From Thermoflexus sp. (GTDB lineage: Bacteria; Chloroflexota; Anaerolineae; Aggregatilineales; Aggregatilineaceae): a stretch of 35,818 nt of DNA. The position numbers were made by a program, and so were the translations under genes. Positions 2,996 to 16,412 of this stretch are shown one piece after another. The stretch's first letter is position 1. Each line of letters opens with the position of its first letter. A model generated the notes under the pieces. The model worked only from the letters and a program-made list of their open reading frames with translations, was not told where the DNA came from and made no database searches. The stretch is from positions 1-35,818 of the forward strand of contig DYGW01000009.1 in assembly GCA_020724485.1 (NCBI GenBank), written 5' to 3'.

Positions 2996-3160
2996 GTCCC
3001 GTGCCCTAGCGGGTCTACTGGGCGCTGGGATTGCCCCCTATCCCCTAACCCCTTTCCCCACGCCGCGGGGGAGCAGGCCAGCCGCTTTTCTCCCTTCTCC
3101 CCCTGTAGTGGAAGGGCCGGGGATGGGAGGACAAACACGCTCACGACTTGTTCGTAGACC
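2996..3160 (+). repeat. R element, degraded copy (R2)
   Basis: From about 3019 the sequence follows the R element (GGGCGCTGGGATTGCCCC, the GAAGGGCCGGGGATGGG core at 3111-3127, then ACAAACACGCTCACGACTTG and a decayed terminus TTCGTAGACC). The left terminus is not recognisable and the 2996-3018 part is only loosely similar, so the left boundary is uncertain. Many substitutions and indels relative to the full copies mark it as older. Confidence 0.7.
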
Positions 3161-3178
3161 TGCCCGCCGCAACCAGTC

Positions 3179-3207
3179 TTGCTACCGCCCCGCCCGAAAG
3201 CTATAAT
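3179..3207 (+). promoter_or_regulatory. Sigma-70-type promoter for rseP
   Basis: TTGCTA (3179-3184), a 17-base spacer and a perfect TATAAT (3202-3207). It lies about 110 bases before the rseP start and immediately right of the degraded R element. Confidence 0.7.
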
Positions 3208-3259
3208 CTTAGCACAAGGTAAGTCAATCCCGCTGTGCGCGTCCTGACAGACCCAACCG

Positions 3260-3282
3260 GGGGCGTCCTTGCTTGACGCCCC
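3260..3282 (+). promoter_or_regulatory. Hairpin in the rseP 5' leader
   Basis: GGGGCGTC (3260-3267) pairs perfectly with GACGCCCC (3275-3282) across a 7-base loop, and GTTTACTT follows. It falls between the promoter and the start codon, so it may be an attenuator-like or mRNA-stability structure. The T tract is too poor to call a terminator. Confidence 0.45.
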
Positions 3283-3316
3283 GTTTACTTGGGTGGCAGC
3301 AGACTGAGGTAGGTGG

Positions 3317-4723
3317 ATGGATAACTTCCTGCTGGGGCTGGCCTCGTTTGTGCTGGTCCTGGTCCCCCTGGTGATCATCCATGAGCTGGGGCATTTCATC
3401 GGTGCGAAGCTGGTCGGCGTCACCGTGCTGGAGTTCGGCATCGGATTCCCGCCGCGCGCCAAGACGCTCTTCACCAAAGGGGACACGATTTACACGCTCA
3501 ACTGGCTGCCCGTCGGCGGCTTCGTGCGTCCCTATGGTGAGGACTTCGTCCGCCAGAAAAGCCCCGACGAGCTGAGCGCCGACCGCCGCGAGATCGAAGA
3601 GCGGGGCATCAAGAACCCCAAGAGCGTCTTCCAGGCGTCGCCCTGGGAGCGAATGCTCTTCCTCGTCGGCGGGCCGGGGATCAACTTTGTGGCGGCGCTG
3701 CTGCTGTTCATTTTCGTCGCCCTAGTCGGCCAGCCCTTCGCCCGCGCCGATGTCACTGTCTACGACGTGCAGCCCGCTTCGGCGGCAGCAGAGGCCGGCT
3801 TGCAGCCGGGCGACATCATCACCGCCGTCAACGGGCAGGAGATCGAGTCTGCCGATGCGTTCAACCGTCTGATTGCCAGCAATCTCGACCAGGCGGTCAC
3901 TCTGCAGATCAAGCGCGACGCCGAAACGTTCGAGACCACGCTGGTCACGACCAGCCAGACCAGCCGGACTGTCGAGCGCGTCTACATTGACTCGGTCGAG
4001 CGCAACATGCCCGCCTACGACGCCGGGTTCCTGCCCGAAGACCTGATCGTCGCCGTGGACGGCATCGAGATCACCAGCATCGAGCAGCTTCAGGACTACA
4101 CCCAGGCGCACGATCGCGAAGAGATCGTGATCACCGTTCTGCGCGGCAGCGAGCGCCTCGATCTGCCCGTCACCCCGCGCCCCGACGACAACGGCGTGGT
4201 GCGCATCGGCATCGGCATCGCCGGAGTCGAGCCGTCGGCCATCGGCCTGACGGCGGTCAACCGCAACGCGCACACCTACACGCGCGCCCTGCCCCTGGGT
4301 GAGGCCATCAGCACCGGCGTAGATGAGTTCGTAGACCTGCATCGCCTGATGGCCCAGTTCGTGGAGGACTTGGTCCAGGGCGACATCGCGCCGGAGGCCG
4401 CCCGACCGGTCAGCCCGGTGGGCATCGGCCAGCTTGGCGCGCCCATCTTCGAGCAGAGTCTCGACGAAGGGGAGATGTACCCGATCGTGCTCTTCGCCGC
4501 GATGATCAGCGTGGCCCTGGGCATCACCAACCTGCTGCCCATCCCTGGGCTAGATGGCGGGCGCATCCTCTTCGTGGTCATTGAGATCATTCGCGGCAAG
4601 CCGATGAGGCCGGAGCGCGAAGGGCTGATCCACCTGATCGGCGTGATGCTGCTGCTCGGTCTCATCTTCCTCACCGTCCTGAACGACATCTTCAACCCGA
4701 TCAACATTGACAGTATCAGATAA
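3317..4723 (+). CDS. rseP: RseP-like site-2 membrane protease (M50)
   Basis: A 468-residue intramembrane zinc metalloprotease. The first membrane segment carries HELGH at residues 22-26 with the zinc-binding histidines and catalytic Glu. The second zinc site is in LLPIPGLDGGRIL, with Asp413. Between them are two PDZ domains, roughly residues 128-205 (PASAAAEAGLQPGDIITAVNG) and 212-290 (MPAYDAGFLPEDLIVAVDG). This is the layout of RseP proteins, which cut membrane-bound anti-sigma factors or signal peptides; the substrate here is unknown. The start follows AGGTAGGTGG closely. It has its own promoter and leader hairpin. No sigma/anti-sigma pair is adjacent, and no dxr, cdsA or uppS neighbours are present as in many bacteria. 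Confidence 0.95.
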   Translation: MDNFLLGLASFVLVLVPLVIIHELGHFIGAKLVGVTVLEFGIGFPPRAKTLFTKGDTIYTLNWLPVGGFVRPYGEDFVRQKSPDELSADRREIEERGIKNPKSVFQASPWERMLFLVGGPGINFVAALLLFIFVALVGQPFARADVTVYDVQPASAAAEAGLQPGDIITAVNGQEIESADAFNRLIASNLDQAVTLQIKRDAETFETTLVTTSQTSRTVERVYIDSVERNMPAYDAGFLPEDLIVAVDGIEITSIEQLQDYTQAHDREEIVITVLRGSERLDLPVTPRPDDNGVVRIGIGIAGVEPSAIGLTAVNRNAHTYTRALPLGEAISTGVDEFVDLHRLMAQFVEDLVQGDIAPEAARPVSPVGIGQLGAPIFEQSLDEGEMYPIVLFAAMISVALGITNLLPIPGLDGGRILFVVIEIIRGKPMRPEREGLIHLIGVMLLLGLIFLTVLNDIFNPINIDSIR

Positions 4724-4764
4724 TGGAGGTACCAAAGCAATGTCGCACAACTGCTCTGGGCAGC

Positions 4765-4831
4765 GAGTCTTGAGTCAGGAGTCTTGAGTCAAGAACCTGG
4801 GGCAATCTCACGACTCACAACTCAAGGCTCA
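4765..4831. repeat. GAGTCTTGAGTC direct/inverted repeat cluster
   Basis: Two perfect copies of GAGTCTTGAGTC at 4765-4776 and 4779-4790, then an imperfect inverted form GACTCACAACTCAAGGCTC at 4813-4831. The cluster sits between rseP and the HEAT-repeat gene and overlaps the extended open frame of the latter, which argues against the most upstream start of that gene. Confidence 0.6.
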
Positions 4832-4894
4832 CAACCCATACGGTGCGGATTTGAATTGGTTTCTCCACAAGCAACAGAAAGCGAACTAGCAAGC

Positions 4895-6025
4895 ATGATT
4901 CACGGGGCCATCAACGAAGAGGAGCGCAGCGTCCGCTTCCAGCACACAGTCGCCCTGCTGCGCGATCCCGACGCATCTTTCACCGCCGAAGCGATCTACA
5001 CGCTGTCCGACCTCGGTGGCGCGCAGCTCGCCCAATTCCGCGCGCTGTGGGGCGAGATGCCGGTCGCGCGCCGCCGGACGCTGATCGCGCGCCTGGTCGA
5101 GACTGCCGAGATGAACTTCGAGCTTGACTTCAGCGCCATCGTCCATCCCGCACTCGACGACCCGGACGCCGATGTGCGCGCGGCAGCGATTGAGGGCATC
5201 CTTGAGGACAGCCCCCGCCGCGTCATCGAGCGCCTGATGCACATCGCCCAGGGCGACCCATTCATAGCAGTGCGCGCCGCCGCCGTCAAGGCGCTGGGCC
5301 AGTTCGTGCTTCAGGGCGAGTTGGGCAAGCTCCCCGAAACGCTGAGCGCGCGCCTGCAAGACCTCCTCTTCGCCCTGTATGGCGACTTCAGCGAAGACCT
5401 CGACGTTCGCCGCCGCGCCCTGGAAGCTATTGGCAACTGCGGGCGCGAAGGCGTGGCCGAACTCATCCGCGAAGCGTACTACGCCGACGAGCTGCCCATG
5501 CGCATCAGCGCTGTATTCGCGATGGGCCGCTCGTGCGACGAGCGTTGGGCTTCGCGCATCATGGACGAGCTATCCAGCGAGCGCCCGGAGATGCGCTATG
5601 AAGCGGCCCGCGCTGCTGGCGAGTTGGAATTGCGCCCGGCTGTGGCCCGCCTGATCGAGCTGGCCTACGAAGACGACCGCGAGATTCAGGAGATGGCGAT
5701 CTGGGCGCTGGGCGAGATCGGCGGCAAGCAGGCCAACCGCGCCCTCGACCAGTTGGCTACCCTGGCCGCTTCTCAGGAAGACGACGAACTGGCCGATGCC
5801 ATCGCCGAGGCGCAGTCTGCCTCCTCGCTGGCCGGTGAAGATCTCCTGCCGCTCTTCGACTTCAGCGACTTCGAGGACGATCTGCTCGAAGACGAAGACC
5901 TGCTCAACGAGGACGGCAGGCTGAATCGCCGCCACTTCTCCTACCTGGACGACGAAGACGACGAGCGCGACGACGGAGACTTCTTCGTCGTCCTCGAAGA
6001 AGACGAGGACGACGACCTCTTCTAG
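4895..6025 (+). CDS. HEAT-repeat protein with acidic C-terminal tail
   Basis: This 376-residue protein consists mostly of tandem HEAT/PBS-lyase-type helical repeats of about 30-35 residues. Recurring signatures such as VRAAAIEGI, VRAAAVKALGQF, MRISAVFAMG and IQEMAIWALGEIGG mark the repeats. Such repeats form a curved scaffold for protein binding. The last ~60 residues are very rich in Asp and Glu (ending LEEDEDDDLF) with few hydrophobics, so probably disordered. ATG 4895 is chosen; an earlier in-frame TTG at 4784 would translate the short repeats between the genes. No strong Shine-Dalgarno is visible. A TPR protein follows 68 bases downstream, so two scaffold proteins are probably co-transcribed. 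The partner is unknown, and no phycobilin lyase role is implied. Confidence 0.85.
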   Translation: MIHGAINEEERSVRFQHTVALLRDPDASFTAEAIYTLSDLGGAQLAQFRALWGEMPVARRRTLIARLVETAEMNFELDFSAIVHPALDDPDADVRAAAIEGILEDSPRRVIERLMHIAQGDPFIAVRAAAVKALGQFVLQGELGKLPETLSARLQDLLFALYGDFSEDLDVRRRALEAIGNCGREGVAELIREAYYADELPMRISAVFAMGRSCDERWASRIMDELSSERPEMRYEAARAAGELELRPAVARLIELAYEDDREIQEMAIWALGEIGGKQANRALDQLATLAASQEDDELADAIAEAQSASSLAGEDLLPLFDFSDFEDDLLEDEDLLNEDGRLNRRHFSYLDDEDDERDDGDFFVVLEEDEDDDLF

Positions 6026-6093
6026 GCCGTCCTGCGTCACACCGGCCTGCCCACACCCGCCCGACCAGGCAGACAGCACGGAGACGAGACCTG

Positions 6094-6672
6094 ATGACGG
6101 ATTCCGCTCACGATTCGCCCGCCGACCGCGCCGAGTACGACGCGCACCTTGAGCGACTGTCCGAGGAACAATTCCGCCGCCAGATGCGCCAGGCGGCTCA
6201 CCTGCTCAGCAACGGACAGGGCGAGGACGCGATCCCGCTGCTCAAGCGTTGCCATGACCTGTACTCGGACGACATAGACGTGCTGATCAACCTGGGCGGC
6301 GCGTATATCCTCGCTGGCAGGCACCGCCTGGCCGTGCCGCTGCTCGAACGCGCCAGCGAGCTAGCCCCGGACAACCCTGCCGTGTGGTCGAACCTGGCCG
6401 CCGCCTACCTGGGGCAGATCATCCTCTCGACGCGCGCCAAGCAGGATCGGGCGCTGGCGGCGTACCGGCGCGTGATCGAGTTGGACGCTGCTTATCCAAA
6501 CGCGCACTACAACATGGGGCTGATCTACATTGACCGGCGCGACTGGGACGCCGCTTACACGGCCTTCACCCTCGCCATCGAGTCGAATCCTCACGACGAA
6601 GACGCCCACGCGATGCGCCAGCGGGTCGAGCAATTGCGCGCCCGCCCCGATGCATCGCCGTCAGCCAACTGA
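6094..6672 (+). CDS. TPR-repeat protein
   Basis: A soluble 192-residue protein with about three to four tetratricopeptide repeats covering residues ~25-180. Consensus positions are clear in DDIDVLINLGGAYILAGR, NPAVWSNLAAAYLGQ and YPNAHYNMGLIYIDRRDWD. TPR units bind partner proteins in complexes; no enzymatic domain is visible. The start ATG is preceded by GGAGACGAGA. It lies just downstream of the HEAT-repeat gene in the same direction and probably shares its transcript, which may end at the stem at 6698-6732. Specific role unknown. Confidence 0.88.
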   Translation: MTDSAHDSPADRAEYDAHLERLSEEQFRRQMRQAAHLLSNGQGEDAIPLLKRCHDLYSDDIDVLINLGGAYILAGRHRLAVPLLERASELAPDNPAVWSNLAAAYLGQIILSTRAKQDRALAAYRRVIELDAAYPNAHYNMGLIYIDRRDWDAAYTAFTLAIESNPHDEDAHAMRQRVEQLRARPDASPSAN

Positions 6673-6697
6673 CTCCCCAACCGGCGCATGTGTTGCG

Positions 6698-6732
6698 GCC
6701 CCCTGACGCGCGATTGTGAGGCGTCGGGGGGC
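6698..6732 (+). terminator. Stem-loop after the TPR gene, overlapping the next promoter
   Basis: GCCCCCTGACGC (6698-6709) pairs with GCGTCGGGGGGC (6721-6732) through 12 pairs with one G-T. The following CTTGCTATAATGG is a poor T tract, so termination is possible rather than certain. The loop contains the -35 hexamer of the acylphosphatase promoter. Confidence 0.45.
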
Positions 6733-6742
6733 TTGCTATAAT
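6714..6742 (+). promoter_or_regulatory. Sigma-70-type promoter for the acylphosphatase gene
   Basis: TTGTGA (6714-6719), a 17-base spacer and a perfect TATAAT (6737-6742), ending 38 bases before the GTG start. The spacer contains half of the preceding stem-loop. Confidence 0.75.
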
Positions 6743-6780
6743 GGCAGCGCCAGAACAGCCAGACGCAGGAGACGCGAGCG

Positions 6781-7074
6781 GTGACGCAGACGCCAGGGGA
6801 TGACTTCGCCAGGTTACATGCGGTGGTGATAGGCCGCGTGCAGGGCGTCTACTTCCGCGCGACGACCCAGCGCGAGGCGGTCGCGCGTGGCCTCTCTGGT
6901 TGGGTGCGCAACCGCTGGGATGGCAGCGTCGAGGTTGTCGCCGAGGGCCAGCGCCCGGCGCTCGAATCGTTCGAGGTCTTCCTGCACCAGGGGCCGCCGA
7001 GCGCGCAGGTCACCCACGTCGAGATTACTTACAGCGCAGCAACCGGGGAATTCAACGGGTTCCACGTCCGCTAA
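6781..7074 (+). CDS. acyP: Acylphosphatase
   Basis: A 97-residue acylphosphatase, which hydrolyses carboxyl-phosphate bonds such as those of acetyl phosphate, carbamoyl phosphate or 1,3-bisphosphoglycerate. The signature GRVQGVYFR at residues 18-26 supplies the phosphate-binding loop with catalytic Arg26, and WVRN supplies catalytic Asn44. The G-W-V-R-N and DGSVEVVAEG blocks match the family and the length is standard with a short N-terminal extension. GTG is used as start; GCAGGAGACG precedes it. It has its own promoter. An unknown membrane-anchored protein follows 88 bases later. Confidence 0.95.
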   Translation: MTQTPGDDFARLHAVVIGRVQGVYFRATTQREAVARGLSGWVRNRWDGSVEVVAEGQRPALESFEVFLHQGPPSAQVTHVEITYSAATGEFNGFHVR

Positions 7075-7162
7075 TAACCACCTATCCGTGAATCGCGGGC
7101 GCGGCAGAGCAGCGTCCCCGCGCGGGCAGACTTGCGGATAGATAGCTTAAGGTCGAAGGGCC

Positions 7163-8467
7163 ATGTTCAAGTTCAACCCTCAGCGCATGGCGTGGATCAC
7201 CATGATCGGCGGTCTGGTGGTCTTTGCCCTGATGTGCACTGGCACGGTGGTCTTCGCGCGCTGGCTGGTCTTTGAGTCTCCAACGCGCCTCAACGCTACG
7301 CTGCACGTCGGTCAGGGCACGGTCGCCCTGGCTGCGCCGGACGCCGCCGACGAAAAAGCCGTGCGCAGCAGCGCCAGCGTCAACCACAACAACACGCTCA
7401 CGACCGACAACCTCTCGCAGGGCTATATCGCCTTCTCCGACCCCTACTCCGGCGAGATCATCGCCACTGTGACGCTGCGCAACGATAGCCTGGCGACGCT
7501 GCGCAGCGCCGTTCGCCCGCGCTTCAGCCTCAGCGACAACCCCTACGTGGTGCGCCTGTCCGGGGTCCTTGGCCGCCTGGAAGTGTGGGTCAGCGACGGC
7601 CTGGATCGCCAGCTCCGCATCGAGATCGAGAGTCCCCTGGGCACCACGCGCATTGACGAGCAGGGTAACTTCCTGATCGAGAGCACCACCGCCTACTTGC
7701 GCGTGACCTCGCGCGACGGCAGTGCCATGCTGGTGAGCCACGACGCCACCGCCCAACACCTGGCTCCTGGCACCGAAGGGGAGATCGTGGCCGGTAGCGC
7801 CGAAATCCTGGTCGGCTCCGCGCCTATTGACCTGCTGCCCAACAGTATGTTTGGGCAGAATCAGGAGTGGCCGACCGAGTGGGTGTGCGCCCACACCCCC
7901 GACCCCGGCTTCCCGAACGCCCCCAGCGGCACGTATGACTTCCCCACGGTGGACGGGCGTCCCTCTATCCATATCAAGCGTCTGCAGCCCAACCCCGGCC
8001 CGGCCAAAACCGGCTGTATCCAGGTGCTCGGCGAGGGAGTGCAGGGACTCGACGTGCGCCAGTACAACAGTCTGCGCCTGCGCGTGACTATGCGCGTCCA
8101 GCACCAAAGTCTGAGCGCCTGCGGCATCGCTGGATCGGAGTGCCCGGTCATGCTCAAGCTGACCTACCTGGATCAAGATGGCAACGCCCGCGTGTGGTAT
8201 CACGGCTTCTACACCGAGTACCAGCCCGCGTCAGGCGGACGGCGCATCTGCGATTCGTGCTGGGAGCCACACGAGCAGATCAACAAGGGGGCCTGGTACA
8301 CTTACGAGTCCGGCAACCTGTTCACCGACTGGCCAGAAGGCGAGCGTCCCGGTGTCATCCAGCAAGTCGAGTTCTACGCTTCGGGGCACGAATACGAGGT
8401 GATGCTCAGCGAAGTCTCGCTGGTGGCAACGCTGCCAGCGGGGGCCAGCGCCCCGGCAGAGGGATGA
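7163..8467 (+). CDS. Membrane-anchored protein of unknown function, FecR-like region
   Basis: A 434-residue protein I do not recognise by name. Residues ~10-33 form a single N-terminal membrane segment (signal anchor), so most of the chain should be extracytoplasmic. Residues ~85-215 are beta-rich; the YLRVTSRDGSAMLVSH...LAPGTEGEI stretch resembles FecR-type sensor domains, but only weakly. Residues ~220-425 resemble a carbohydrate-binding-like beta sandwich, with paired cysteines (SACGIAGSEC, ICDSCW) that could form disulfides outside the membrane. ATG 7163 follows AGGTCGAAGGG. The gene downstream encodes a zinc-ribbon membrane protein, possibly functionally linked. Function assignment would be guesswork. 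Confidence 0.85.
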   Translation: MFKFNPQRMAWITMIGGLVVFALMCTGTVVFARWLVFESPTRLNATLHVGQGTVALAAPDAADEKAVRSSASVNHNNTLTTDNLSQGYIAFSDPYSGEIIATVTLRNDSLATLRSAVRPRFSLSDNPYVVRLSGVLGRLEVWVSDGLDRQLRIEIESPLGTTRIDEQGNFLIESTTAYLRVTSRDGSAMLVSHDATAQHLAPGTEGEIVAGSAEILVGSAPIDLLPNSMFGQNQEWPTEWVCAHTPDPGFPNAPSGTYDFPTVDGRPSIHIKRLQPNPGPAKTGCIQVLGEGVQGLDVRQYNSLRLRVTMRVQHQSLSACGIAGSECPVMLKLTYLDQDGNARVWYHGFYTEYQPASGGRRICDSCWEPHEQINKGAWYTYESGNLFTDWPEGERPGVIQQVEFYASGHEYEVMLSEVSLVATLPAGASAPAEG

Positions 8468-8499
8468 TCCTCGCGCCCATCGCGGCAATCGCCCGGCCA

Positions 8500-8508
8500 T
8501 GCTATACT
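8500..8508 (+). promoter_or_regulatory. Extended -10 promoter for the zinc-ribbon gene
   Basis: TGC followed by TATACT (8503-8508) makes an extended -10 element 64 bases before the next start codon. No good -35 is visible. Confidence 0.45.
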
Positions 8509-8572
8509 GACCGCGTCCGGGGCCGCTCGGCGACAAGACTCCCGCCTGCGGCACTGCCAGCGGAGCAACGAC

Positions 8573-10158: not shown

Positions 10159-11640
10159 TCAGCATGGGCTATCGTTTTCGCCCACTGTCAGCACTCTAAG
10201 GAAATTGGTCTGGCTGCCGATCCCGAACGGGACGCCGCCGATGATGACCATCAGATCGCCGTTGGCGACCAGGCCGGCGCTGCAGGCCGTCTCCACAACG
10301 ACATCAATCATCTCGTCAATCGTCTCGAACTCGTTGACCAGAATGGGCAGCACGCCCCACACCAACGCCAACCGGCGATAGGTTCGCTTGTTGGGCGTCG
10401 CCGCCAGGATGGGCGTCTTGGGGCGCACGCGGGCCACGCGCTGGGCGGTATAGCCCGACCACGTGCTGGCGACGATCAACTTGGCGTCGAGCATGTCGGC
10501 GATGCGGCTGGTCACGTGGCTGATCGCCGCTGCGATGGCGCGCTGCCGGTCAAGATGCAGCGTGCCGAGGTTCAGTTCGGCGCGATGCAGCTCGCCGTGC
10601 TCGCCCAGGTACTGCTCGGCAATCTGAGCGATGCGCACCATCGTCTCCACCGCCTGCAACGGGTACTTGCCGACCGCCGTCTCGCCGGAGAGCATCACCG
10701 CGTCCGTCCCGTCAAAGATGGCGTTAGCCACATCAGTGGACTCGGCGCGCGTCGGGCGTGGGCTGTCAATCATGCTCTGCAACATCTGCGTCGCCGTGAT
10801 GACCGGCTTGCCCACTTCGTTGCAGCGTTTGATGATGTTTTTCTGGTGGACGGGCACGCGCTCCGCCGGCGTCTCAACGCCCAGGTCGCCGCGCGCCACC
10901 ATAATCCCATCGGACTGCTCGAGGATCGCGTCAAAATTAGCGAGAGCCTCAGCCTTCTCGATCTTGGCGATCAGCGCGACCTCACCCTTCAGGTGGCGCA
11001 CCAACCAGCGCAATTCGCGCAGATCGTCTGCCGTGCGCACGAAGGACATGGCCAGGTAGTCCACGTCCTGCTCCAGCGCGAAACGGATGTGCTCGCGGTC
11101 TTCGTCGGTGATGGACGAGATGCGCAGCGCTGAGTCCGGCACGCTCACCCCTTTGTGGGAGGAGAGCAGCCCGCCGGAAACCACTTCGCAGCGCACGTCC
11201 GCGCCCTGCCGTGCCTCCACCACGAATTCAAGCTGCCCGTCGTCCAGCAGCAGCCGCTCGCCCACGTTCAGATCGTCCAGCAGTGCCTGGTGTGGCAGTG
11301 GGATGAAGAACGGCTTCTCCGGGTCAAGCACGGTAGATGCCGTGAGCGTCACCAGGTCGCCGGCGGTCAGTTCCAGCGGGTCTTGAACCAGAGCGCCGAG
11401 GCGCAGCTTGGGGCCGGGGATGTCGGCCAGGATAGCCACGACTTTGTCTTCTTCCTCGGCCACGCGGCGCACATTCTCGATATTGCGCGCGTGCGTCTCG
11501 TGGTTGCCATGACTGAAATTGATGCGCGCCACGTCCATCCCCGCGTGAACCATCGCCCGCAGCATCCCAATATCCTGCGACGCGGGGCCGATGGTCGCCA
11601 CGATCTTGGTGCGCTTGCGGTACTGTGGCATCGGTTCCAT
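10159..11640 (-). CDS. pyk: Pyruvate kinase
   Basis: Catalyses phosphoenolpyruvate + ADP to pyruvate + ATP, the last ATP-forming step of glycolysis. The protein is 493 residues. Seen are the N-terminal TKIVATIGPAS strand, MDVARINFSHGNH, the active-site block IAKIEKAEAL, the catalytic-lid motif MVARGDLGVE and the substrate motif KPVITATQML, followed by the C-terminal alpha/beta effector domain. No PEP-synthase-like extra domain is fused. ATG 11640 is preferred because GAGAGGCGAG lies just before it; the open frame extends 24 codons further with no family similarity. The gene follows enolase after a stem-loop and precedes an AEC permease, so two consecutive glycolytic steps are encoded together. 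Confidence 0.97.
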   Translation of the reverse strand: MEPMPQYRKRTKIVATIGPASQDIGMLRAMVHAGMDVARINFSHGNHETHARNIENVRRVAEEEDKVVAILADIPGPKLRLGALVQDPLELTAGDLVTLTASTVLDPEKPFFIPLPHQALLDDLNVGERLLLDDGQLEFVVEARQGADVRCEVVSGGLLSSHKGVSVPDSALRISSITDEDREHIRFALEQDVDYLAMSFVRTADDLRELRWLVRHLKGEVALIAKIEKAEALANFDAILEQSDGIMVARGDLGVETPAERVPVHQKNIIKRCNEVGKPVITATQMLQSMIDSPRPTRAESTDVANAIFDGTDAVMLSGETAVGKYPLQAVETMVRIAQIAEQYLGEHGELHRAELNLGTLHLDRQRAIAAAISHVTSRIADMLDAKLIVASTWSGYTAQRVARVRPKTPILAATPNKRTYRRLALVWGVLPILVNEFETIDEMIDVVVETACSAGLVANGDLMVIIGGVPFGIGSQTNFLRVLTVGENDSPC

Positions 11641-11672
11641 ACTCGCCTCTCTCCCGCCGCTTGGCCAGCAAA

Positions 11673-11716
11673 GCGAATGCCTGGGCTGTGCTGGCGCGCC
11701 CAGTCCAGGCATTCGC
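11673..11716 (-). promoter_or_regulatory. Long stem-loop between eno and pyk
   Basis: GCGAATGCCTGG (11673-11684) pairs perfectly with CCAGGCATTCGC (11705-11716), giving a 12-bp stem with a 20-base loop. It lies downstream of eno and just before the pyk ribosome-binding site. The T tract after it on the minus strand (CTTTGC) is weak, so it may be a processing or stability element or a partial terminator. Confidence 0.5.
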
Positions 11717-11745: not shown

Positions 11746-13047
<1,302 letters not shown>

Positions 13048-13141: not shown

Positions 13142-13163
13142 GGGGCGTAGCGCGCTACGCCCC
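13142..13163. repeat. Perfect 22-bp palindrome (GGGGCGTA type)
   Basis: GGGGCGTAGCG at 13142-13152 is followed at once by its exact reverse complement. It lies downstream of the BioD-like gene and may act as a transcript end, but has no T tract. It resembles the GTAGGGGCGTA hairpin at 20461-20490, so I file it as a member of a short palindromic repeat family. Confidence 0.6.
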
Positions 13164-13185: not shown

Positions 13186-14265
13186 CTACAGCTTCAAGAG
13201 CTGCATCAATTCGTCGTACTTCAGGTGCTCGGCCACAATCGCCTGGAAGCGGCTGAGCTTCTCCGGCTGGCCCAGGCTTGTCCGCCCGAACATGCTCTCC
13301 ACCTTCTCGACCGCTTCGAGCGTGTTATCTGGCACCAGCAAGACGGCGACGTTCAGTTCATCCGCACGGCGCAGGATGGTGGAGGTCGGTTGCAAATTGC
13401 CCGTCAGCACCAGGCAGGTGGTCGAAGTCTCCAGGGCCGCCGCCTGAATGTCGGTGCGGTCGCCGCCGGTGAACACAGCCTTGTTAAGCTGGCGGCGGAA
13501 GCGCGGTAGCGCCGACTCAACCGACATCGCGCCCACGCTTAGGTGCTCGACCAGACGCTCGCGCAGGTGCGAGCCGGTGAGCACTTTGGCCTTCAGCGAG
13601 TCAATGATCTCGCCGACGCTCAGCGCCTGCAGATAAGGATCATAAGGCAGCACACCCAGTACCTTGATGCCCTGTTTCTCCAGGAACGGCACCACCCGCT
13701 CGCGGATATAGACCATATCCTCACGTGGCACACTGTTGAGCACCACTCCGATGAGATGATCACCCAGGCGGCGCAGCGACGCCAGCGCGTCGTCCAGCAC
13801 GCACATGGCCGCGCGGCATTGCTCGCCATAGCTCACCACGCTCAGGGTGGGCGCTTTCAGGCGCTCGACCACGCTGAGCGTGTTGACGCCCACCGCGTAC
13901 CCCTCGCGCATACTCGCGCCACCCTCCATGATCACCACGTCGTTGTCTTCGCTGGCCTGCTTGCACGCATTCTCGATCTCGGCCAGCAGGTCGCGCTCCA
14001 TCGTGCTGTTCATCGCCTCTTCGAGCAACTCATTAGTGATGATCACCGGCGAAAGCTCCCAGGGCGGCGTTTCCAGCCCCAGCGTCCGGCGCACGAAATC
14101 GGCATCCTCGTCCAGCACGCGGCCCCCGGCCTTGTACGGCTGCGTGCTGACGGGCTTGAGGTAGCCCACCTTCAGCCCCGCCGCCTGCATACGCAGCCCC
14201 AGGCCCAGCGCAATCGCCGTCTTGCCGGAATAGGTGTTGACCGAAGTGATGTACAAACTCGTCAT
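13186..14265 (-). CDS. BioD-like/DRTGG-domain protein (phosphotransacetylase N-terminal-like)
   Basis: A 359-residue protein. The first ~215 residues resemble the P-loop dethiobiotin-synthetase fold (YITSVNTYSGKTA at residues 5-17, VVIMEGG, GVVLNSVP). The C-terminal ~130 residues form a DRTGG-type domain (TGGDRTDIQAAALE followed by CLVLTGNLQPTSTILRRADE). This architecture matches the N-terminal regulatory part of long bacterial phosphotransacetylases, but the catalytic PTA domain is absent. AAGGA lies before the ATG. It follows the ADP-forming acetyl-CoA synthetase gene after 44 bases, so a regulatory or sensing role in acetyl-CoA/acetate metabolism is plausible. That is an inference from context; biotin synthesis is unlikely without bio neighbours. 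Confidence 0.85.
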   Translation of the reverse strand: MTSLYITSVNTYSGKTAIALGLGLRMQAAGLKVGYLKPVSTQPYKAGGRVLDEDADFVRRTLGLETPPWELSPVIITNELLEEAMNSTMERDLLAEIENACKQASEDNDVVIMEGGASMREGYAVGVNTLSVVERLKAPTLSVVSYGEQCRAAMCVLDDALASLRRLGDHLIGVVLNSVPREDMVYIRERVVPFLEKQGIKVLGVLPYDPYLQALSVGEIIDSLKAKVLTGSHLRERLVEHLSVGAMSVESALPRFRRQLNKAVFTGGDRTDIQAAALETSTTCLVLTGNLQPTSTILRRADELNVAVLLVPDNTLEAVEKVESMFGRTSLGQPEKLSRFQAIVAEHLKYDELMQLLKL

Positions 14266-14309
14266 GTTTGTCTGTCCTTCTCAGCTAGCTGAATGCCCTA
14301 TCGGACGTC

Positions 14310-16412
14310 TCATTTGCTCTTGAGCACCAGACGCATGTCCAGCGTGATCGCGCCCTGCCCGGCCTCGTAGACCATCAGCGGGTTGATGTCCATTTCGACG
14401 ACCTCCGGGAAATCGGTCACCAGCTGGTTGATGCGCAGCAGGGTGTCAATCATGGCTGCGCGGTCCGCCGGGGGCCGCCCGCGCACGCCCGCCAACAGCG
14501 AGTGCGCGCGAATCTCGTCGAGCATCTCCTCGGCGTCCTGGCGGCCAAACGGCGCAACGCGGAAAGTGACATCCTTCAATGCTTCTACCAGGATACCACC
14601 TAAACCGAAAGTCACCAACGGCCCGAACTGTGGGTCTTTGCTCATGCCGACCAGCACTTCGATGCCGTTCATGGGCACCATTTGCTGCACCAGGCAGCCC
14701 CAGATGCGCGCGTCTGGCACGTAGCGCGTCGCCCGGTAAACGATCAGGTCAAAGGCATCGCGCACGTCGTTGGCGTTCTGCAGCCCTACCTTCACGCCGC
14801 CCACATCTGTCTTGTGCAGAATATCCGGGCTGGCGATCTTGAGCACCACCGGGTAGCCGATCTCGCCGGCAATGCGCACCGCCTCGTCCGCCGTCGCCGC
14901 GAGCTGGCTCTTGGGCAGGTGCAGCCCATAGGCCTCGGCCACAGCGCGCGCCTCGGCCTCGCCGACGCTCACCCGCCCCTCGGCGTATGCCTGGTCGAAC
15001 ACCTTGCGCACGGCGTCCCGGTCAACGTCGTAGGTGACAAATTCCGGCTCCGGGCGGTCGCGGGCGATGATGTAGTCGCGCATGGCAGCAAAGGCGCGCG
15101 CCGCCTGTTCGGGGAACATATAGTTGGGCACGTTGTAGCTCGCCAGTACGTCCTCGCCGGCTTTGGCCCGTTCCTCACCCATGAAGGCCGCCAGAATCGG
15201 CTTGTCTGTACGTTGGCTGAGCTTGCCCACCGCGTTGGCCGTCTCAACGATGTCGGTCATGGCCTGCGGGGTGACGATGCACAGTAGCCCGTCTACATTG
15301 GGATCGAGCGCGACCAGTTCCATTGCCTGGGCGTAGCGGTCGTGGCGCGCGTCTCCGAGCACGTCCACCGGGTTGGCGGCGCTGGCTGCGTCGGGCAAGA
15401 ACTCCTCCAACTTCTGCACGGTCTCGCGTTGGAGCCGGGCAAGCTGCATCCCACGCCGCTCCAGCGTGTCCGTCGCCAGAATGCCGGGGCCGCCCGCGTT
15501 GGTGATGATAGCGATGCGGCTGCCGTTGGGCAGCGGCTGGTTGGCGAAGGCGCGCGCGTTACCGAAAAGCTCTTCCAGGCTGTTCATGCGCAGCACACCT
15601 GCCTGGTAGAAGGCCGCGTCATAGGCCGCCTCTGCGCCGGCCAGCGATCCTGTGTGGCTGGAAACCGCCCGCGAGCCGGACTCGGTCGCGCCGCTTTTCA
15701 AGACCAGGATCGGCTTCTTGCGGCTGACTTCGCGCGCCACGCGCATGAACTCCGGCCCGTTGGGCACGCCCTCAATGTAGGCCAGCATCACGCGCGTCTG
15801 CGGGTCGTCCGCCCAGTCGAGCATCAGGTCGGTCTCGCTGATGTCGGCCTTATTGCCCAGGCTGACGAAGCGACTGAAGCCCAGGTCTTGCGAGGCCAAC
15901 GACCAATCCAGGATGGCCGTCTGCAACGCGCCGGACTGCGACATAAACGAGATGTTGCCTTGCGGCGGCGTCCCGGCGGCGAAGGTCGCATTCAGCGGCG
16001 TATACGTGTCAATGATGCCCAGGCAGTTCGGCCCGATGATGCGCATGCCGTACTTCTTGGCGATCTCGATGACTTCCTGCTCGCGCTCGGCCCCTTCCAC
16101 GCTGGCTTCACGGAACCCGGCGCTGATGACCACCACCGCCTTGATGCCCTTCTCCCCACACTCGCGCAGCGCCGCCGGCACTGCGTTGTAGGGGATTACG
16201 ATCACAGCCAGGTCGGGCGTTTCGGGCAGGCTCAGCACCGAGTCATACGCCTTGTACCTGGCAATCTGCGTTGCGCCGGGGTTGATCGGGTAGATGTTGC
16301 CCCTGAAGCCGGACTCAATGACATTAGCCAACACAGAATAGCCGAGCTTGCCAGGCTTCGTGCTCGCGCCAATGATCGCTACTGCGTTTGGTTTGAAGAA
16401 TCCCTCAAGCAT
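14310..16412 (-). CDS. Fused alpha-beta ADP-forming acetyl-CoA synthetase
   Basis: A 700-residue NDP-forming acyl-CoA synthetase that should convert acetyl-CoA + ADP + Pi to acetate + ATP + CoA, the one-step route known from archaea and some anaerobic bacteria. The N-terminal CoA-binding domain (VAIIGASTKPGKLGYSV, residues 11-27) is followed by the succinyl-CoA-ligase-like domain with SSHTGSLAG, where His253 is the likely phosphorylated residue. The C-terminal ~220 residues are the ATP-grasp beta subunit (YPVVLKIASPDILHKTDVGGV, near the end VVEMDINPLMV). Both halves are complete in one chain. GGGAG precedes the ATG. It heads the minus-strand cluster with the BioD-like, eno, pyk and AEC genes. 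Acetate is the default substrate guess; propionyl-, pimeloyl- or aryl-acyl-CoA substrates and protein acetyltransferase relatives are alternatives. Confidence 0.92.
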   Translation of the reverse strand: MLEGFFKPNAVAIIGASTKPGKLGYSVLANVIESGFRGNIYPINPGATQIARYKAYDSVLSLPETPDLAVIVIPYNAVPAALRECGEKGIKAVVVISAGFREASVEGAEREQEVIEIAKKYGMRIIGPNCLGIIDTYTPLNATFAAGTPPQGNISFMSQSGALQTAILDWSLASQDLGFSRFVSLGNKADISETDLMLDWADDPQTRVMLAYIEGVPNGPEFMRVAREVSRKKPILVLKSGATESGSRAVSSHTGSLAGAEAAYDAAFYQAGVLRMNSLEELFGNARAFANQPLPNGSRIAIITNAGGPGILATDTLERRGMQLARLQRETVQKLEEFLPDAASAANPVDVLGDARHDRYAQAMELVALDPNVDGLLCIVTPQAMTDIVETANAVGKLSQRTDKPILAAFMGEERAKAGEDVLASYNVPNYMFPEQAARAFAAMRDYIIARDRPEPEFVTYDVDRDAVRKVFDQAYAEGRVSVGEAEARAVAEAYGLHLPKSQLAATADEAVRIAGEIGYPVVLKIASPDILHKTDVGGVKVGLQNANDVRDAFDLIVYRATRYVPDARIWGCLVQQMVPMNGIEVLVGMSKDPQFGPLVTFGLGGILVEALKDVTFRVAPFGRQDAEEMLDEIRAHSLLAGVRGRPPADRAAMIDTLLRINQLVTDFPEVVEMDINPLMVYEAGQGAITLDMRLVLKSK

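Follow-up and report, generated by a model that had tools for sequence, protein, structure and literature searches.

Why should a gene for an ADP-forming acetyl-CoA synthetase be followed directly by a gene for a protein built like the regulatory half of an enzyme from the alternative route to acetate? The question is raised by a locus in a 35,818-nucleotide stretch of Thermoflexus sp. DNA (GenBank assembly GCA_020724485.1, contig DYGW01000009.1, positions 1 to 35,818), called the window below. A preliminary description had reported a 700-residue fused synthetase (Acd) followed after 44 bases by a free-standing BioD-like/DRTGG protein without the catalytic half of phosphotransacetylase (Pta), and the exact reading frames and Pfam matches confirmed this arrangement:

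14310..16412, minus strand: acd, NDP(ADP)-forming acetyl/acyl-CoA synthetase, fused alpha-beta, 700 aa (open frame, Pfam, TIGR02717)
14266..14309, minus strand: 44-base gap between the two genes, in which the terminator scan found no terminator-like site
13186..14265, minus strand: gene for the free-standing BioD-like (AAA_26) plus DRTGG protein, 359 aa (open frame, Pfam, fold)

Conservation of the gene pair

The pair was searched for in 150 genomes of the class, where 103 BioD/DRTGG places were found and 73 were kept, the 30 weakest being dropped (E 3e-17 or worse: Pta-type frames of ~700 aa, frames of ~560 aa, contig-cut pieces and others). The 73 places belonged to 68 of the 150 genomes. 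Considering the first 70 Acd rows among the matches listed, an Acd gene ended directly upstream on the same strand in 55 of the 73 places. A contig-cut Acd stood upstream in three more (genomes G034, G044 and G088), while in G012 and G086 the BioD/DRTGG gene was split over contigs with its N-terminal piece directly behind Acd; an adjacent same-strand pair was thus present in 60 of the 73 places. Among the 13 places without it, that of G128 reaches a contig end. A second collection, consisting of the best 80 loci, almost wholly from Chloroflexota and partly from the same genomes, showed Acd directly upstream in 73 loci, with two at an edge and five without it. One of these five is the Thermoflexus locus L132, where the order is acetyl-CoA hydrolase/transferase (with a C-terminal GNAT domain), BioD/DRTGG and then a more distant Acd downstream (3082-8523).

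The pair was also recovered outside the class. Other classes of the same phylum contributed 66 places, 41 of them within the 40 loci fetched; 17 of these loci carry the pair, seven adjoin nuoE and 16 show neither. Ten of these 17 pairs, among them one that is cut at a contig end, have no enolase gene (eno) downstream, and the pair found in one Poribacteria metagenome-assembled genome (L131) also stands without it. Thirteen plasmid records matched, ten of them haloarchaeal, and all nine annotated haloarchaeal records carry a "phosphotransacetylase family protein" with an acetate--CoA ligase. In the three haloarchaeal regions that were opened the two genes overlap by 4 bases and no eno occurs; the remaining three plasmid matches, from Pseudomonas and Deinococcus, were pta-type or unannotated.

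A tally by family, made by hand, returned 25 families with both genes adjacent, two with BioD/DRTGG only, one with Acd only and 23 with neither (Fisher p 3.5e-11, in a test that ignores relatedness among families). Among 110 gaps between acd and the BioD/DRTGG gene, 14 were 4-base overlaps and two contained terminator-like sites. A chance pairing was ruled out by the recurrence in many families together with the co-occurrence test. The pair is thus genuine, and it is kept in numerous bacteria of a single phylum as well as in certain archaea. A pair confined to this genome, which the preliminary description had named as a refutation, was not what was found, since the pair recurs far outside it in the class, in the second collection and on the haloarchaeal plasmids.

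The paired synthetases were compared with their paralogues in a quick tree of 58 rows with long branches, for which the paired rows were thinned to 31 and 16 unpaired paralogues were chosen by hand from the class matches rather than taken exhaustively. Of the 31 paired Acds, 29 share a group (98*, 39 rows) with three haloarchaeal ones, five from family f39, the paired but cut L145 and one unpaired row from G101. The other 15 of the 16 unpaired paralogues fell outside this group, as did L167 and L169, although both are paired. The window genome itself encodes a second NDP-forming Acd (L195, G000:C348:943-3021), 48% identical and without a BioD/DRTGG partner.

The preliminary description had also placed the pair next to eno and pyk, and Pfam confirmed both genes on the same strand, giving the minus-strand order acd, BioD/DRTGG, eno, pyk:

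13142..13163, minus strand: terminator-like hairpin of 9 perfect, GC-rich pairs followed by a T-rich tail, in the gap that separates eno from the BioD/DRTGG gene (terminator scan)
11746..13044, minus strand: eno (enolase), third cluster gene in many relatives (open frame, Pfam)
10159..11712, minus strand: pyk (pyruvate kinase), fourth cluster gene in some relatives (open frame, Pfam)

In the second collection eno lay within 1.5 kb downstream in 27 of 80 loci, seven being at an edge. The loci L069, L070 and L075 encode proteins 93-94% identical to those of the window, by which the window is assigned to a Chloroflexota/Anaerolineae metagenome-assembled genome, and the hairpin recurs in the near relative L075. 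The hairpin was considered as the end of a two-gene unit and set aside as weak evidence, since only 3 of 48 gaps between BioD/DRTGG and eno were positive (the window as L211, L075 with the same hairpin and L070 with another) and the terminator scan as a whole did not exceed chance (5 found, 4.0 expected).

Other neighbours were observed in some lineages. The BioD/DRTGG gene directly precedes nuoE/nuoF-type genes at L036 (4604-6863) and L037 (134-2577), both tandem, and at L161, L163, L174, L179, L184, L188 and L189. At L036 a gene for a molybdopterin oxidoreductase comes next, and the N-terminus of its product resembles NuoG; judged by eye, the cluster is perhaps an NAD-linked formate dehydrogenase. 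At L038 (4398-5456, genome G059) the gene sits within a complex I cluster, between nuoD (49-kDa) and nuoH (NADHdh). A distant branch from families f60, f72 and f80 (L175, L176 and L180) has panC adjoining, and in L175 and L180 a protein of ~200 aa without a Pfam match precedes the BioD/DRTGG gene on its own strand. A link of this branch with CoA synthesis was considered and set aside; panC stands beside the three copies on the opposite strand.

The two proteins and the acetate route

Pfam analysis of the 359-aa protein returned AAA_26 followed by DRTGG, and the PTA_PTB catalytic domain was not found in it. Its ATP-site residues comprise a P-loop GKT at 14-16, K37, D54, E114 and N177, and E. 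coli BioD carries the same set (K15, S/T16, K37, D54, E114 and N177) in the same alignment columns; we take these six residues to have the Mg-ATP roles that they have in the dethiobiotin synthetase BioD. Their conservation was surveyed in 171 free-standing proteins merged at 99% to 150 non-redundant ones, following an earlier alignment of 127 proteins in which duplicate genomes were included. Of the 107 Acd-paired proteins 103 have the whole set, and it is also complete in all three haloarchaeal ones, in all five that adjoin eno only (including G128, at a contig end), in 9 of 12 nuo-linked copies and in 14 of 23 without a recognised neighbour.

None of 13 long Pta proteins (12 from the class and that of E. 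coli) kept the complete set. Eleven read K-S-R-N-I-N at the six positions and two, including E. coli, read L-T-K-S/T-E-N: D54 is substituted in all 13, K37 is R and E114 is I in 11, and K15 is L in two including E. coli. The preliminary description had equated the protein with the N-terminal half of Pta. This holds for the domain order AAA_26-DRTGG and fails at the ATP site, where a BioD-type Mg-ATP set is kept; the 359-aa protein is therefore not simply a Pta sensor half. Judged from these residues, we infer that it binds ATP.

The AlphaFold2 model of the protein was confident (pLDDT 94.1, pTM 0.88). Fold matches over the full domain were dethiobiotin synthetases, with 1dbs at Z 21.1 over 214 aligned residues, and the DRTGG part matched AF1212 (2ioj, Z 20.3). 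The N-domain of E. coli Pta (7t85) ranked 14th in Foldseek with a TM of 0.73 on the 173-residue target. The aligned ranges of the BioD rows extend to residue 353-359, which suggests that DRTGG (about 214-327) interrupts the BioD fold before its final helices.

Acd enzymes are acetate/ATP enzymes in many archaea and uncultured bacteria. The window Acd contains CoA_binding_2, Succ_CoA_lig, Ligase_CoA_2 and ATP-grasp_5, so that all domains expected of an NDP-forming enzyme lie in one fused chain, and it passes TIGR02717 (579.4 bits, cut-off 567.15). His253, presumably the active-site histidine that is phosphorylated, is present in all 96 paired and other rows of the alignment and in all 16 unpaired rows. 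The protein stayed under the cut-off of NF045493 (710 against 1300), and its closest solved structure is a 4-hydroxybutyrate-CoA ligase; acetate is its likely, putative substrate.

The window genome (91.6% complete) encodes a single DRTGG protein. No Pta over the cut-off was found in it, the one weak match scoring 22.9 bits, and acetate kinase gave no match. In the 150 class genomes a PF01515 search at E <= 1e-20 returned long Pta proteins of ~700 aa with their own N-terminal half, lower-scoring frames of ~620-1170 aa, frames of ~300-440 aa at E 1e-46 to 1e-30 and one contig-cut piece. A short pta lacking the N-terminal half and co-varying with the BioD/DRTGG gene, the case raised in the preliminary description against a link with Acd, was rejected: the sole strong short match is a 323-aa frame in G129, a genome where a free-standing BioD/DRTGG protein was not found. 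The pair is also present in a genome with Pta, as G049 carries acd-BioD/DRTGG together with a long Pta.

Known relatives

The best sequence match of the 359-aa protein in the PDB was AF_1212 of Archaeoglobus fulgidus (2IOJ, E 1.8e-24, DRTGG part), for which only the DRTGG part is solved, under the name "hypothetical protein". An N-terminal part probably stands in front of it, because the crystal chain is numbered 206-319. Its locus number is next to AF_1211, from which the two genes are taken to be adjacent, and AF_1211 is listed as an acetate-CoA ligase in the accessible part of PMC8359953. The haloarchaeal pairs have the gene order of the window and encode proteins 34-39% identical to the window's in the nine annotated records, and the one protein scanned (L051) has the same two domains. 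Since PTA_PTB was not found in L051, the haloarchaeal name "phosphotransacetylase family protein" is misleading.

DVU3031 of Desulfovibrio vulgaris, in the luo operon, likewise combines AAA and DRTGG in a free-standing protein that lacks PTA_PTB, and its gene adjoins genes for acetate formation (PMC4481167, in part); the neighbours are pta-ackA and lldG rather than acd, and the likeness is judged from the domain description. The available portion of PMC10102598 places it in the pta-ack operon and describes it as important for D. vulgaris on L-lactate. According to PMC4481167, again in part, the place of Pta and Ack is taken in six other species by a putative ADP-forming synthetase.

Two protein families help to place the domains. 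The N-terminal half of class II Pta (E. coli Pta, 7T85) shares the AAA_26 and DRTGG order, while the window protein is free-standing. This half is regulatory, as the S. enterica substitution G273D in DRTGG alters pyruvate activation (PMC12724200, in the part available). Dethiobiotin synthetase BioD shares the fold and the Mg-ATP residues, and differs in that the window protein has DRTGG inserted near its C-terminus. Control of a related step by an adaptor is described in the accessible part of PMC13039410, where acetyl-CoA synthetase of B. subtilis is reactivated by a deacetylase, and this deacetylase is under the control of AcuB, which acts with Ap4A through a CBS domain.

The literature search, from which subscription papers were mostly absent, found no paper in which an ADP-forming synthetase is partnered by a free-standing BioD/DRTGG protein, and in a search not aimed at Acd regulators generally it found no protein regulator of Acd. 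The pairing had been called possibly undescribed; this agrees with the literature search and has to be qualified for the kind of protein, which is already known from the partial structure of AF_1212, the haloarchaeal annotations and the genetics of DVU3031, and the pair is visible in databases.

What the BioD/DRTGG protein may do

Acd is the commonest and most widely shared partner, both domains are regulatory in class II Pta and the ATP site is strongly conserved; we therefore favour, tentatively and at somewhat less than an even chance, the reading that the 359-aa protein is a sensor in its own right that binds ATP and acts on Acd, and that certain lineages use it for other clients as well. 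It would be a Mg-ATP-binding relative of the class II Pta regulatory half, sensing energy or redox state through a nucleotide at the BioD-type site, with the DRTGG domain taking a small metabolite or forming a subunit interface. Acting in trans on the Acd encoded just ahead, it would tune the conversion of acetyl-CoA to acetate plus ATP in a genome where Pta-AckA is not recognisable. What we infer here is the contact with Acd, the ligand that would be sensed and the direction of control.

Several observations weigh against this sensor of Acd. In three genomes of one genus (G028, G062 and G090) and in G002 the BioD/DRTGG gene stands beside eno, and no NDP-forming Acd was found there, only weak ATP-grasp matches in ~400-aa frames. 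G104 (87% complete) has the gene with neither Acd nor eno beside it, in G101 acd and BioD/DRTGG lie on separate contigs, and 12 non-redundant copies adjoin nuo genes. A mirror-tree analysis of 37 loci gave a partial r of 0.42 for BioD-Acd given Eno and of 0.50 for BioD-Eno given Acd, so that the protein shows no preference for Acd over Eno. The fused Acd AF_1211 is reportedly active on its own. PMC4481167, as far as it was accessible, states that a DVU3031 homologue is usually absent and not involved in lactate oxidation. In the f39 genomes G095 and G036 Acd is present and BioD/DRTGG was not found.

Family f39 as a whole has acd and eno as neighbours with the usual BioD/DRTGG gene absent between them. 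Three of its five genomes encode a distant version of about 420 aa, which in two stands beside acd:

L045:5761-7017, divergent from acd: distant BioD/DRTGG gene
L048, about 5912-7144, divergent from acd: distant BioD/DRTGG gene

Both domains of the L045 protein were over the Pfam cut-off, the two aligned proteins keep all six ATP-site residues and have lost the GGDR motif, and the copy in G068 reads through one in-frame stop. The statement that f39 genomes lack the partner was thus half wrong, two of the five having none.

A dedicated Acd partner is weakened by the eno-only genomes without Acd, the nuo-linked copies and the mirror-tree result; with copies beside eno and beside nuoE/nuoF genes, it is not a sensor reserved for Acd. 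The earlier proposal of a phosphotransacetylase-type sensor for an ADP-forming enzyme therefore keeps the conserved pair and loses both the Pta-type ATP site and the exclusive client.

The main rival, which we consider unlikely, is that the protein is an enzyme in its own right, a BioD/CobB-type ATP-dependent ligase or kinase that would activate some carboxylate or carbamate, either of acyl-CoA metabolism or of central carbon metabolism, and that is placed near Acd and Eno by pathway logic. The retained Mg-ATP residues and the dethiobiotin synthetase fold match would suit an enzyme, as would the f39 version that keeps its ATP site while GGDR is lost; however, the curated bioD model gave the window protein 24.7 bits, far under the cut-off of 83.3, and DRTGG lies within the regulatory region of solved pyrophosphatases (titles of 3L2B/3L31). 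A general energy or redox sensor that serves Acd, the enolase/pyruvate kinase step and NADH-module enzymes alike, rather than an Acd regulator as such, appears improbable to us. It would account for the range of contexts (acd, eno without acd, nuoE/nuoF, and nuoD and nuoH on either side), for a mirror-tree signal no weaker for Eno than for Acd and for the Thermoflexus order of CoA-transferase, BioD/DRTGG and Acd. Against it, no other neighbour comes near Acd in frequency (Acd accompanies 107 of 150 non-redundant proteins and also the three haloarchaeal ones, in a sample favouring the window's close relatives), and the pair occurs without eno in the opened haloarchaeal regions and L131.

That the genes merely share a conserved central-metabolism cluster without direct functional contact is, in our judgement, very unlikely. 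The presence of eno and pyk in the same cluster speaks for it, as does the loss of acd or BioD/DRTGG without the other, but the out-of-class and haloarchaeal pairs that lack eno downstream, the 4-base overlaps and the near confinement of pairing to one Acd subfamily speak against it. A wider proposal joins several of these contexts. Free-standing BioD/DRTGG proteins may be mobile control subunits, driven by ATP, that arose before the regulatory half of class II Pta. Bacteria and archaea would have attached them in trans to the enzyme at which the choice falls between making ATP from acetate and gaining reducing power, whether this is Acd, the step of enolase and pyruvate kinase or a complex linked to NAD(H). 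In Pta such a subunit would have become fused, and its ATP site would have decayed; we offer this as speculation that is doubtful as a whole.

The two-gene unit common to Chloroflexota, one Poribacteria metagenome-assembled genome and haloarchaea, with its ATP-site set retained, is a testable candidate for an Acd regulator. It also offers a handle on the L-lactate phenotype of DVU3031, left unexplained in the available part of PMC10102598, and on the DRTGG domain, to which PMC12724200, in the part available, assigns no known function.

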